NCBI RefSeq assembly: GCF_900129175.1
Contig: NZ_FQUI01000018.1
Coordinates: 1 to 38,300, forward strand
Length of the DNA stretch: 38,300 nt
Reading direction: 5' to 3'
Source of the DNA: Marinitoga hydrogenitolerans DSM 16785
GTDB lineage: Bacteria; Thermotogota; Thermotogae; Petrotogales; Petrotogaceae
In this document: piece after piece, positions 17,783 to 23,097 of the stretch
Position numbering within the stretch: position 1 is the first letter of the stretch
How the letters are laid out: each line of letters starts with the position of its first letter
Translations under genes and position numbers: made by a program
The notes under the pieces: model-generated
What the model was told of the DNA's origin: nothing
Database searches by the model: none
Seen by the model: the letters and a program-made list of their open reading frames with translations, nothing else

Positions 17783-19642
17783 ATGGCTATTGTTAAATTA
17801 CCCGAATCGGTAATAATGAAAATCGCCGCTGGTGAAGTAGTTACCGGAACTTTTGCTGTTGTAAAAGAACTATTTGAAAACGCCATTGATGCCCATGCTG
17901 ACAAAATTACTGTTGAAATAAAAGATGGTGGAAAAACATATATTAGAATTACAGATAATGGTGTAGGAATGTCTGAAGAGGAAATATTACTGGCTGTTCA
18001 ACCACATACCACAAGTAAAATAAAAGACGTTAATGATTTATACAATATTCATACATACGGATTTAGAGGCGAAGCTCTAGCAGCTATTTCAAGAGTTTCA
18101 AGAATGAAAATAACCTCTAAAAGAAAAGATGATGATGTTGCAACAAGCATCGAATTTGTTGGTTCTAAACCTATCAGCACAAAAAAAACAGCTGCACAAA
18201 ATGGAACTACTATAGAAGTAAAAGATTTATTCTTTAACATTCCCGCAAGAAGAAAATTTTTAAAATCCGCAGCCATCGAAGGCCGCATGATAACTGAAAT
18301 TATAGAAAAATTTATTTTAGCAACTAATGTTGGTATAGATTATATTAAAGATGGTAAACTTATATATTCCATCTCTAAAAATATACCTTTAATAGAAAAA
18401 ATAAATACTATTTTTCCAGAAACAAAAAAAGATGATTTTTTTGAACTCAATATAGAAGAATCCTGGTTTAAAATAAAAGGCTTTATTTCTCACCCCAGAG
18501 TAACCAGAAACAACAGAACAGCTCAAATATTTTTTATAAATAACAGATATATCAGATCTGGTGATTTATTTGCAGTTTTTGAATCTGGTTATGGCGAAAT
18601 GTTAGAATCAAGAAGGCATCCATATGGTATTGTTTTTTTTGAAATAGATCCAAAAGAAGTTGATATTAATGTCCATCCACAAAAATTAGAGGTAAAAATA
18701 TCAGAATCGAGAATCATATATAATAAATTTAAAAGATTAATAAGGGAAACCCTTATTAACAAAACTACTTTCAGAATGTCTATTAATGTGGAAGATGCTA
18801 GTGATGACACTTATACTACTAAAAAAGTTATACAAAAAACTTATGAAAATAGCATTCCAACTGTCTCTGAACTTGAGGAAAAATATGAAACTTTTTTAAT
18901 TAATAAAGAAAGAAAAAGTGAAAGAATAGAAAAAAAGCCTTTACCTATTATGCAAAAAAAACTTCATCAAAAACAGGAAGAAAAGAAAATCATACAAGAT
19001 ATAAACCAAAATATAAATTATTTAAAATCACAACATGTAAACCCTGAAAATACTATAGAAAAAAAATCTATTGATTTTAGCTATTATAAAATAGTTGGTT
19101 TAGTTGCTGATAGGTATATAATTCTTGAATTAAAAGACTCTATACATTTTATTGATTTTCATGCTGCTCATGAAAGAGTAATTTATGAAGATTTAAAGAA
19201 AATATTTTTTGAAAAAGGAAATATTACTACACAAATGATAATGTTACCTATAAAATTAAATCTAGACGAAACGAGAAAAGAAATACTAGAAAACAATATT
19301 GAAAAAATTAGAAAATTAGGTTTTGAAATTACGGAAGAAAATAATGAGTTTTACATTATAGGATTTCCATCTAATATAAAAATAAATGATCCACAAACCA
19401 CCATTATTGAAATTTTGGATGAACTTAGGTTGGAAGGGATAGAATCGCCAGAAAAGATTTTTGATCATGCTATTGCAACTATGGCATGTAGAGCTGCTGT
19501 AAAAACTGGTGATGATCCTGTTGGATTAGATATATTAATTTCTAAAATTATTGAATATAATATTTTAACTTGCCCACATGGAAGACCTATTTCAATGGAA
19601 TTACAGTTAAAAAAATTAGATGAGTTTTTTGAAAGAAGTTGA
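17783..19642 (+). CDS. mutL: DNA mismatch repair protein MutL
   Basis: A 619-residue MutL. The N-terminal GHKL ATPase has KELFENAIDAHA, DNGVGM, GFRGEAL and PHTTSKI, and the DIxVHPxKxE motif is present as DINVHPQKLE. The C-terminal dimerisation domain carries DFHAAHERVIYE, which fits DxHA(x)2E(x)4E, the metal-binding endonuclease motif, together with ACRAAVK and CPHGRP. This MutL should therefore nick DNA itself, as in bacteria without MutH. The open frame extends to 17729 inside rlmB, but the ATG at 17783 follows GTAGGTGATTTA and gives the standard AIVKLPESVIMKIAAGEVV start. It is the last gene of the run beginning at siaA. Confidence 0.95.
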   Translation: MAIVKLPESVIMKIAAGEVVTGTFAVVKELFENAIDAHADKITVEIKDGGKTYIRITDNGVGMSEEEILLAVQPHTTSKIKDVNDLYNIHTYGFRGEALAAISRVSRMKITSKRKDDDVATSIEFVGSKPISTKKTAAQNGTTIEVKDLFFNIPARRKFLKSAAIEGRMITEIIEKFILATNVGIDYIKDGKLIYSISKNIPLIEKINTIFPETKKDDFFELNIEESWFKIKGFISHPRVTRNNRTAQIFFINNRYIRSGDLFAVFESGYGEMLESRRHPYGIVFFEIDPKEVDINVHPQKLEVKISESRIIYNKFKRLIRETLINKTTFRMSINVEDASDDTYTTKKVIQKTYENSIPTVSELEEKYETFLINKERKSERIEKKPLPIMQKKLHQKQEEKKIIQDINQNINYLKSQHVNPENTIEKKSIDFSYYKIVGLVADRYIILELKDSIHFIDFHAAHERVIYEDLKKIFFEKGNITTQMIMLPIKLNLDETRKEILENNIEKIRKLGFEITEENNEFYIIGFPSNIKINDPQTTIIEILDELRLEGIESPEKIFDHAIATMACRAAVKTGDDPVGLDILISKIIEYNILTCPHGRPISMELQLKKLDEFFERS

Positions 19643-19659
19643 GTTTTTATTTTAAATAC

Positions 19660-19688
19660 TTGACATTAAAATTTTTTTATAGTATAAT
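19660..19688 (+). promoter_or_regulatory. Consensus sigma-70 promoter of the asparagine synthetase leader
   Basis: Perfect TTGACA (19660-19665), a 17-nt spacer and perfect TATAAT (19683-19688). The leader peptide start lies 30 nt after the -10, so the leader RNA should begin near 19695. Confidence 0.9.
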
Positions 19689-19717
19689 AGAAAAAAATTC
19701 AACAGGTGGTGTTACTT

Positions 19718-19795
19718 ATGATTATAACAATATCAATAAAATTAAATAATTTAAATAATAATAATATCAACCAGCGTTGGTGCAACGCGAGGTAA
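19718..19795 (+). CDS. Asn-rich leader peptide of an attenuator
   Basis: A 25-residue frame with an ATG after AGGTGGTG. Eight of the 25 residues are Asn, and residues 10-18 read NNLNNNNIN, seven Asn in nine codons (six AAT and one AAC). The stop TAA (19793-19795) lies within a hairpin loop just upstream of mutually exclusive RNA structures. Downstream is the asparagine synthetase gene. This matches the design of trp, his and leu leader peptides, in which the peptide is a sensor of charged tRNA and not a product. The genome is AT-rich, which favours AAT codons, but the clustering, the signals around it and the downstream gene go well beyond composition. Confidence 0.85.
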   Translation: MIITISIKLNNLNNNNINQRWCNAR

Positions 19796-19823
19796 CTCGT
19801 CGTTTATAATCCACCGGCGCTGG
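19771..19823 (+). promoter_or_regulatory. Antiterminator and competing leader hairpins (Asn attenuator)
   Basis: Strand 19771-19782 (CCAGCGTTGGTG) can pair with 19812-19823 (CACCGGCGCTGG) over 12 positions, two of them G-U. That pairing would destroy the terminator at 19814-19851. The same strand is masked when GCGTTG (19774-19779) pairs with CAACGC (19783-19788). A third hairpin, CGAG-GTAA-CTCG (19788-19799) with a GNRA loop, contains the leader stop codon and extends with AACG/CGTT at 19784-19787 and 19801-19804. A ribosome held at the Asn codons would leave the antiterminator strand free. A ribosome reaching the stop codon would cover part of it and allow termination. Confidence 0.78.
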
Positions 19824-19851
19824 ATGTTTTCATACCAGCGCCGGTTTTTTT
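19814..19851 (+). terminator. Attenuator terminator upstream of the asparagine synthetase gene
   Basis: A perfect GC-rich 10-bp stem CCGGCGCTGG / CCAGCGCCGG (19814-19823, 19835-19844), with ATG/CAT pairing inside the loop, is followed by seven T (19845-19851). It lies 70 nt before the asparagine synthetase start codon, between promoter and gene. Confidence 0.92.
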
Positions 19852-19920
19852 ATTAAAAAAATTTGGAGAGGGAGAGATTCTATATAATTTTATAAATTAC
19901 ATTTGAAGGGAGAGGGTATT

Positions 19921-20889
19921 ATGACAAAAAAAAGTGTAGAAAGCATGGTAAGAAAGGTTGATACTGTGGAATTAGTTAAGGAATATTTAGAAAATCCTGT
20001 TTTTAAAGATGCAACTTTAGTACAGAGTGAAATTTTAAAAAGCATTAGACATGTCCTGGATGAAAAAGAGTTTGTGGAATTATTACCAGTTACAGTTTCT
20101 CCAATAACGGATCCATTAAACCATCCTCACTTTGAAGCAGAATTTGAATACTATGGTCAAAAATATTCAGTTACAAAATCTATGATACTACACAAACAGG
20201 TAGCAGTTTTAGTTCATAAGAAAATATATATTGTATCCCCAAATGTTCGTCTTGAAACAGAAGATAAAATGGACTCTGGAAGACATTTGTTTGACTTTGT
20301 TCAAATAGATATGGAAATGTTAGAAGCAAGCAGAGAAGATGTTTTTGACATAATGGAAGATGCTATTATACACACAATCAAAACTATAAAGAAAAAATAT
20401 CCTGATATTATTAGAAAATATCATCCGTCATTAAAAACACCTTCCAAACCGTTTAAACGTTATACTGTTAAAGAATTAAAAGAGAAATATGGAGAAAGAG
20501 ATTATGAAAAAATTGCTTCTTTAAATGCTGATGAACCGTTTTGGATGATTGATATTCCATTAATGGATAGAGAATTTTATGACAAACAAGATCCAAAAAG
20601 ACCAGATGTTTTATTAGACTTTGATCTCATATACCCTGAAGGTTTTGAAGAAGCTATCTCCGGGGGAGAAAGAGAACATGAATATGAACAAATATTAAAA
20701 AGAATGAAATTGAAAAATACTCCACCCGAACAATTTGAAGATTATTTAGCTGTTGCTAAAGCCGGAATATTAAGGCATTCTGCCGGATGCGGTATAGGAA
20801 TAGAAAGATTCACACGATGGGTTCTTGCATTAGATCATGTAGAAAAAACTCGTTTATTTGCTAAAACACCTGGAAAACACTCAATATAA
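19921..20889 (+). CDS. asnA: Archaeal-type asparagine synthetase A (AspRS/AsnRS-related)
   Basis: A 322-residue protein with the class II aminoacyl-tRNA synthetase catalytic core and no anticodon-binding domain. Motif 2 reads NVRLETEDKMDSGRHLFDFVQIDMEM (R110, E112, R121, H122) and motif 3 GCGIGIERFTRW (about 289-300). Proteins of this kind from archaea such as Pyrococcus make asparagine from aspartate, ammonia and ATP through an aspartyl-adenylate. The Asn-codon leader peptide and attenuator directly upstream support asparagine synthesis over a tRNA-charging role. It differs in sequence from Escherichia coli AsnA although both derive from the same synthetase fold. The ATG at 19921 follows GAAGGGAGAGGG; the frame opens at 19903 without support. 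A strong terminator follows, so it is transcribed alone. Confidence 0.88.
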   Translation: MTKKSVESMVRKVDTVELVKEYLENPVFKDATLVQSEILKSIRHVLDEKEFVELLPVTVSPITDPLNHPHFEAEFEYYGQKYSVTKSMILHKQVAVLVHKKIYIVSPNVRLETEDKMDSGRHLFDFVQIDMEMLEASREDVFDIMEDAIIHTIKTIKKKYPDIIRKYHPSLKTPSKPFKRYTVKELKEKYGERDYEKIASLNADEPFWMIDIPLMDREFYDKQDPKRPDVLLDFDLIYPEGFEEAISGGEREHEYEQILKRMKLKNTPPEQFEDYLAVAKAGILRHSAGCGIGIERFTRWVLALDHVEKTRLFAKTPGKHSI

Positions 20890-20917
20890 TAAAAGGGGCA
20901 TTAGCCCCTTTTATTAT
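20886..20917 (+). terminator. Terminator of the asparagine synthetase gene
   Basis: A 14-bp perfect stem (20886-20899 with 20904-20917, core AAAAGGGGC / GCCCCTTTT) with loop ATTA. It is symmetric, so it may also work for minus-strand transcripts arriving from the chemoreceptor gene. Confidence 0.85.
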
Positions 20918-21009
20918 ATTGATATTATTATTTATTTTATGTCTTCGCAATTTTGCTTTTTATCTACTCACTATAATAAAAGTGCTTGTAAATGTACCTT
21001 TATTATATG

Positions 21010-23097
21010 TTATATCTTGAATTTTTTTATTAATTGCATTAATGATTGAGATAATTTATTCCCCTCTTCTGCTGAATTATTAACTTCCCGAGAACTCTGA
21101 TTTTGCTGCTCTATAGCTCTTACCATATGTTTTACCTGATCAGATATTTCTTCTATAGTTTTTGAAATTCTATCCATTGCAGCGGCCATTTCTTCTGTAG
21201 ATGCACTTTGTTCCTCTGCTGCCGAAGACAATTCATGTACTTTCATATTCATCTCTTCTACTTTCTCACGAATTAAATTAAATTGAGAAACTATATTGTC
21301 AGATTCATTATCTATATCTTTTATAATTTTAACTACTTTATTTGTAGCTTTATTTGCACTCAATGCCCCATCTTTTACGGAAATTAAGATTTTTGCTATC
21401 TCTTCAGTGGATGATTTGCTTTGCTCTGCAAGTTTTCTTATTTCATCTGCAACAACTGCAAATCCTTTCCCAGCTTCACCAGCCCTTGCTGCCTCGATTG
21501 CTGCATTTAACGCTAATAAATTTGTTTGCTCTGTAATTTTGTTTATAGTCTCTACAATATCACCAATATTTTGAACTTTTTCTGATAAATCATTAACTTT
21601 CTCTTGTGTATCTTTTGATTCTTCAACTGCTGTTTCAACTATTTCTGCTATTTTATTAACTGATTTTTCTCCCTTTAAAGCTGCTTCTGATGTTTCATTA
21701 GCTTTGTAAGATAATTCCTCCGCATTTGTCGAAATCAATTGTGCCGAACTCGCAATTTCTTCTACACCTGAAGAAACCTCTTCTACGGATGCTGACGCAT
21801 CTTCAGTATTTGATTCTATAATTTTAGATTGGGATGTTAAATCTTCTGAAATTGCATTTTGTTCTTCTGAAATTGATGCAAGCGAATCCGAGGATAATGA
21901 TAATTTATTTGATGCTTCATATATTGATTTCATCGAATCACGCAAATCTCTTGCCATTACATCTAATGTTTTAGCCATTTGAGCTATTTCATCTTTACCT
22001 TTAAGTTTAAAATCAATTGTTAAATCACCTTTACCAAATTTCTGAATTTTTCCTCTTAACAAATTAATTGATTTTATAATATTTTTTATAATAATATATG
22101 CAAAAATAATCGCTAAAATTACACCAATTATTATCGATGAAATAACTATAGTTATTGCCTTTTGTGCATTCGATGTTGTTTCTTCTGCTTTCTTTGCTGC
22201 TTGAATTTTATTATAATCAACTATTTTTTTCAATACTTCAGATGCACTTTCAAAAAGAGGTAAGTTAATATTTAAACTCTGGTCTGCCATTTGTTCTTTT
22301 AATTGCAAGGCTTCATCTGCTATTTGATTAATAGTTTCAAATGTGTCAAAAATATTTTCCAGATACGGTATAAGTGAATTATTATAAACCCTTTGCATTA
22401 ACTCTATTTGCTTTTCATTCTTTTTCTTTATTACCGTATTTATTGTTTTAGCTGTTTTTAAAAATCCTTCGTTATATTTTTTCATTTCTTCAAACATATC
22501 AGCTAAATAGTCATTTTCTGTTTGATAACTATCTAACCATTTTCCAAAAGCACTTTTTCTTGGATTTAGTTCTTCATTAAATGGCTCTTTTTCTACTATT
22601 GCTTTTTCAATAATCCATGCCAATCTGTATAATTCACTTTCATAGGTTTTTACAGCAAGTTTTAATGATTTAGGATCAAGTATTTTTGTTTCATCCAATT
22701 TCTTTGATAGTTCTATAAAACTTTCATGAGCACTTTTCCATGCGTTTAATCTATTTTTATATTCTTTCCAATATTTCATCTCTTCCTCATTCAAATTAAA
22801 TGTTTCATATTCTTTAATCAATTTATTAATTGAATCCCATGTTTCTTGCATACCCTGATATTCATTATCTCTAAGTTGTTGATCTGTTAAATCGAGTAAT
22901 GCCATTTCAGTTTTTTCAATAAGCGTTTGTAATTGATGAATTGATAATATTTTTTGAACTTTTGGTAGGGTTTCATTTGCAATATTTGAAACACTATTTT
23001 TTAATTCATTTGTTGATAATAGCCCTAAAACTCCTATCATGACAGCTATCAACAATACTACAGAAAATCCTAATATGATTTTAGCTTTTAAACTCAT
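21010..23097 (-). CDS. Methyl-accepting chemotaxis protein
   Basis: A 695-residue chemoreceptor with TM1 near residues 5-28, a helical sensor region to about 310, TM2 near 313-337, HAMP 338-390, and a long signalling coiled coil. The hairpin tip is canonical: [24 protein letters not shown] / [14 protein letters not shown]. Within the sensor region, [11 protein letters not shown] (157-167) and [11 protein letters not shown] (181-191) resemble the two halves of chemoreceptor zinc-binding (CZB) domains (HxxW and CxxGKW), but the His and Cys ligands are replaced. The ligand is unknown. The ATG at 23097 follows GGAGGTGAAAAA; the frame opens at 23133 without support. Monocistronic, with its own promoter. 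Confidence 0.93.

Follow-up and report, generated by a model that had tools for sequence, protein, structure and literature searches.

A predicted asparagine-sensing leader-peptide attenuator upstream of the archaeal-type asparagine synthetase gene asnA in Thermotogota

What controls transcription of asnA, whose product converts aspartate to asparagine, in Marinitoga hydrogenitolerans? Leader-peptide attenuation has been described for few amino acids, mostly in Proteobacteria, and the initial annotation of the DNA analysed here (a stretch of 38,300 nt, hereafter the window, from a genome of 2.3 Mb) proposed such an attenuator, with specificity for Asn, in the short interval between mutL, which ends at 19642, and asnA, which starts at 19921. 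This interval contains a promoter, a leader ORF, a predicted antiterminator and a terminator, all on the forward strand. From the sequence and its comparison with relatives, we conclude that the asnA leader is very probably a ribosome-mediated transcription attenuator that senses charged tRNA-Asn and controls asnA alone.

The sigma-70-type promoter TTGACA-17-TATAAT (19660–19688) matches the consensus at 12/12 positions, with TTGACA at 19660–19665, a spacer of 17 nt and TATAAT at 19683–19688, and is the only 12/12 promoter within 19000–21500. A predicted Shine-Dalgarno sequence (AGGTGG, 19704–19709) is situated 8 nt upstream of the ATG at 19718, which opens a leader ORF of 25 codons (19718–19795; MIITISIKLNNLNNNNINQRWCNAR, followed by a stop codon) with eight Asn codons. 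The putative regulatory codons encode NNLNNNNIN, residues 10–18 (19745–19771), and adjoin the antiterminator strand in all genera; the eighth Asn is residue 23. The 5′ strand of the predicted antiterminator, region 2 (CCAGCGTTGGTG, 19771–19782), would pair with its 3′ strand, region 3 (CACCGGCGCTGG, 19812–19823), in a 12-position duplex that includes two G-U pairs, a pairing supported by duplex energy and by covariation in 19 family sequences. Region 3 overlaps the 5′ arm of an intrinsic terminator (19814–19851), in which CCGGCGCTGG (19814–19823) and CCAGCGCCGG (19835–19844) form a 10-bp GC-rich stem followed by seven T (19845–19851), as supported by its fold (−25.2 kcal/mol) and by covariation. 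A possible protector hairpin, GCGTTG-GTG-CAACGC (19774–19788), seen in the sequence and equivalent to a hairpin that covaries in family f7, would hide region 2. The fold of the leader RNA was better than 200/200 dinucleotide shuffles (z −4.8), and the antiterminator duplex reached −23.5 kcal/mol, as against −13.6 kcal/mol for dinucleotide shuffles of its 5′ strand (fraction 0.004). Promoter, 25-codon leader with its ribosome site and eight Asn codons, 12-position antiterminator and 10-bp stem with seven T thus all lie exactly where the initial annotation had placed them.

The gene downstream, asnA (19921–20889), codes for a product of 322 aa that scores 415.6 bits against NCBIfam NF005054 (cut-off 309); its best PDB match is 3p8t, an archaeal asparagine synthetase A (182 bits), versus 107 bits for the best asparaginyl-tRNA synthetase (AsnRS) chain. 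The AsnRS of the same genome has ca. 440 aa, and an anticodon-binding domain would not fit in the shorter asnA product, which bears out its earlier designation as an archaeal-type asparagine synthetase. The transcription unit probably comprises this one gene, because asnA is directly closed by a bidirectional terminator (20881–20922) with a 19-pair stem on both strands. AsnRS is almost universal in the Thermotogota genomes searched, and tRNA-Asn is charged directly with it; the regulated gene therefore fits the signal, as asnA is an asparagine synthetase in genomes with direct charging. The window genome also codes for a glutamine-type asparagine synthetase, asnB (G000:C29:7752-9296, L123; over the cut-off of TIGR01536), which has no poly-Asn leader and is present in 3/7 genomes of the genus. 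The only close relative in a scan of a genome collection with the protein is Marinitoga lauensis (88% protein identity). The gene in this species (G002; L008/L009/L040) is interrupted by an internal stop and reads as two overlapping frames, owing to a sequencing error or to genuine breakage of the gene, and the attenuator upstream is intact. No member of this asnA family was detected in the 398 genomes belonging to the phylum of a Clostridia genome, which does not imply absence, as that search gave no positives at all.

An alignment of the leader in Thermotogota relatives, proposed in the initial annotation together with a search for compensatory changes, was carried out on 103 genomes and covered every asnA locus whose upstream sequence was long enough; families f8 to f10 do not have this asnA. 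A leader ORF containing Asn codons, followed by a terminator, was found in 48/48 testable loci (47 genomes, 5 families, 19 genera), which do not include those of G015, where the contig ends inside the terminator, and of G054, where the 5′ part is missing. Both the Asn run and the alternative pairings thus persist in relatives. For the 47 loci that were modelled and tabulated for structure and codons, leaders contain from 2 to 11 Asn codons, with 204 AAT and 72 AAC in total. Ribosome sites occur upstream of the relatives' leaders, and a promoter with at least 9/12 consensus positions lies at a similar position in 34/47. In 47/47 modelled loci a GC-rich hairpin with a T run is situated 15–43 nt downstream of the leader stop, and an alternative pairing with the 5′ arm of the terminator is predicted in nearly all of them.

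The distance from the leader stop to asnA ranges from 68 to 625 nt across loci. Loci L024 (G041) and L026 (G042) carry GC-rich repeat-like inserts, of the GGGCGGAGCCCT type, between terminator and gene, and it is because of these inserts that the distance reaches 625 and 218 nt, respectively, leaving asnA far from the attenuator. A short ORF, MLLTLLTFQCYFLLFSFSLPF, with a long hairpin after it is found at both L128 and L130 of G001 and probably represents a repeated palindromic element.

Could the Asn run be a mere product of base composition? Slippage on AAT in a chance ORF might generate it in an AT-rich genome, the terminator then being constitutive or marking where an upstream transcript stops. 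The ca. 150 AAYx4 runs found are indeed as many as those of the reversed control pattern (76/76 vs 69/77), with no genome-wide enrichment; the run taken alone is hence weak evidence, and its significance comes from its position and conservation. We took the start of region 2 as the reference point of each leader; the sequence of this region (CAGCGT in f1, GGCCGGGATCGGTC in f2, TCGACATCGGTC in f7) and its reading frame vary by family. Asn occupies codon −3 before region 2 in 45/47 leaders and codon −2 in 40/47, falling to 2/47 at codon −10. Differences between genera in codons −2 to −5 amount to 895, 842 and 1655 at codon positions 1, 2 and 3, respectively, and the intergenus variation of the Asn codons is chiefly at the third position (AAT/AAC). 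No such third-position excess exists within genera (86, 65 and 39 at positions 1, 2 and 3), so that the case is built on the differences between genera and on the constant place of the codons. Together, these two lines indicate that the Asn codons are under selection as an amino acid. Slippage is accordingly very unlikely to explain the run: Asn is kept with a mixture of AAT and AAC codons whose intergenus differences concentrate at third positions, the run adjoins region 2 in every genus, even where the leader region is richer in GC, and in the sequence sampled below such leaders are found only at asnA. A chance AAT repeat was in this way rejected on codon-position and location evidence.

That sample comprised both strands of 438 kb from Marinitoga, namely 400 kb from a relative plus the window. 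It contains 1076 short ORFs with a ribosome site, 33 of them with a terminator on their 3′ side; among these 33, only the asnA leader of the window and its orthologue are Asn-rich. Likewise, no Asn leader was found upstream of the genes for AsnRS or of asnB among the readable Thermotogota loci, which exclude a few with too short an upstream sequence or a misplaced start.

In genus f2/g12 (Mesotoga-like; L055–L063) the run is down to 2–4 Asn codons, 2–3 of them consecutive and often in the context Val-Asp-Asn-Asn, and most antiterminator duplexes are no stronger than those of shuffles; this genus may have a switch that is losing strength or has been retuned. Two leaders of family f7 (L051 and L048) have Asp codons among the Asn codons (DNDN and NNNDN), a curious observation given that the enzyme converts Asp to Asn.

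Support for the two pairings comes from duplex energy and from covariation. The antiterminator duplex exceeded dinucleotide shuffles (fraction of at most 0.05) in 34/47 loci, including all members of f1. In alignments made with MAFFT, which is blind to structure, and judged against shuffles that ignore relatedness, the 19 sequences of f1 showed 16 cells changed on both sides in the antiterminator and 14 in the terminator, with 0/500 shuffles as high in either case, and both signals collapsed when slid. The 13 sequences of f2 and f11 gave three such cells for the antiterminator (1/500 shuffles) and six for the terminator (0/500). The search for compensatory changes was thus positive for both pairings in f1 and in f2 plus f11. 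In f7 (nine sequences) the antiterminator pairing is kept with no covariation, and a hairpin that would hide the 5′ strand of the antiterminator shows six covarying cells (0/500 shuffles).

These pairings also bear on the possibility that leader translation acts otherwise, by way of access for Rho, stability of the mRNA or repression of its translation, the hairpin then being a processing site. Cys leaders of Mycobacterium have no terminators and may use Rho (PMC1262725), and the variable spacing between leader stop and asnA would be compatible with such a role. Against it, a GC-rich hairpin with a T run is present at every modelled locus and the pairing that excludes it covaries, while in the window the structure leaves the ribosome site of asnA, well 3′ of the terminator, uncovered; we consider this explanation extremely improbable.

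The behaviour expected of an attenuator was then modelled for two ribosome positions, the first Asn codon of the run and the stop codon, with the RNA beneath the ribosome masked. For nascent RNA, the antiterminator had a mean probability of 0.82 in the first state and 0.20 in the second. The direction was correct in 46/47 loci and the contrast holds at 55, 65 and 75 °C; the sole exception, L031, arises because its antiterminator overlaps only the outer arm of the terminator and is missed by the measure. Part of the drop at the stop codon is trivial, as the probability falls whenever upstream RNA is masked, in shuffles too, and the drop went beyond that of shuffles in only 26/47 loci, the leader of the window (0.21) not among them. 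The comparison of this probability with shuffles is therefore a weak measure, and we relied on duplex energy and covariation in its place. In the full leader of the window at equilibrium the terminator stays at ca. 0.98 in every ribosome state, and in the nascent RNA without a ribosome the equilibrium model favours the antiterminator (0.83). As equilibrium of the full leader always favours the terminator, the switch in the window would have to be kinetic, with the antiterminator acting before region 4 is made.

The locus has a translatable leader, clustered Asn codons, a terminator, an antiterminator and a downstream gene that makes Asn, which are features of the trp/his class. By analogy with that class, we infer the following sequence of events, in which leader translation, ribosome stalling and a kinetic competition would set the direction of the response. 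RNA polymerase would start at the promoter (19660–19688) with a ribosome trailing on the leader. When Asn-tRNA is ample, the ribosome would clear the Asn codons, reach the stop codon (19793–19795) and cover region 2 (19771–19782), so that region 3 would be free to pair with region 4 and transcription would stop at 19845–19851. When Asn-tRNA is scarce, the ribosome would stall on the AAT run just 5′ of region 2, which would be free to pair with region 3 ahead of the synthesis of region 4; no terminator would form, and the polymerase would enter asnA. The Asn-sensing attenuator of the initial annotation is thus supported by conservation, codon placement and covariation, and refined by the f7 hairpin, the kinetic nature of the predicted switch and the shrinkage of the run in f2/g12.

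A T-box for tRNA-Asn, or an Asn riboswitch that works without translation and makes the short ORF incidental, would answer the same biological need, asnS being T-box-controlled in a few Firmicutes (PMC2494555), but is most improbable, as all Rfam families score below their gathering thresholds in the window, there is no large conserved aptamer, region 2 differs per family and the Asn codons persist, and a ribosome site lies upstream of the leader ORF. The best weak Rfam hit was on the opposite strand and unrelated, and neither a T-box nor another known RNA family was found.

If the attenuator reading is correct, tight coupling of transcription and translation serves amino-acid sensing in a thermophilic phylum, and the asnA leader offers a way to test whether the ribosome closely trails RNA polymerase in thermophiles. 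An Asn version in Thermotogota would add one amino acid and one phylum to attenuation, and would tie the poorly studied bacterial archaeal-type asnA to Asn supply. The several sequences of regions 2 and 3 that obey one logic would, in turn, represent many natural variants of a single switch. The initial annotation knew of no described Asn leader-peptide attenuator, and our literature search, of incomplete coverage, likewise found no description of one; priority is for this reason not certain. Since there is no Asn leader in the searched text and no Rfam match, we propose a new specificity and a new phylum for the classical trp/his-type mechanism, and the specificity for Asn, the occurrence in Thermotogota and the target gene asnA all appear to be undescribed. 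We consider it likely that this is the first described Asn-specific attenuator, phylum-wide and probably ancestral in Thermotogota, which travels with the archaeal-type asnA and arose separately from the proteobacterial ones.

How does the asnA leader compare with known systems? T-box control of Firmicutes asparagine genes follows the same logic, in that low charged tRNA-Asn leads to read-through (PMC2494555). However, the T-box makes direct contact with the tRNA and does not depend on translation of a leader, and the asnA leader has no T-box match; the same survey lists no T-box in its two Fusobacteria/Thermotogae genomes (PMC2494555). A 2010 study reporting a His leader of hisS/hisZ in bacilli states that, until then, leader-peptide systems were established only in Proteobacteria and Actinobacteria (PMC2965389). 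Actinobacteria have trp, leu and cys systems (PMC1262725), and a Cys leader with the uORFC-8-2 motif precedes cysS in Rhodobacterales (PMC8632094). These leaders share with that of asnA the repeated cognate codons in a short upstream ORF and, in some cases, a terminator, but they respond to other amino acids and belong to other phyla; asparagine is not mentioned in the main texts of the three studies (PMC1262725, PMC2965389, PMC8632094). A 2013 survey of amino-acid attenuators listed specificities for His, Leu, Thr, Trp, Ile/Val and Phe, with Asn not among them, and suggested a gamma-proteobacterial origin (PMC3766115). The closest likeness is to the trp, his, leu, phe, thr and ilv attenuators of Proteobacteria, with a promoter, a leader with a codon run, a strand shared by antiterminator and terminator and a biosynthetic gene on the 3′ side; the protector hairpin of these systems has a possible counterpart at asnA. 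None of the Rfam leader families matches the asnA leader, and this leader differs from the proteobacterial attenuators in its predicted sensing of Asn, in its occurrence in Thermotogota and in preceding one archaeal-type gene instead of a long operon.
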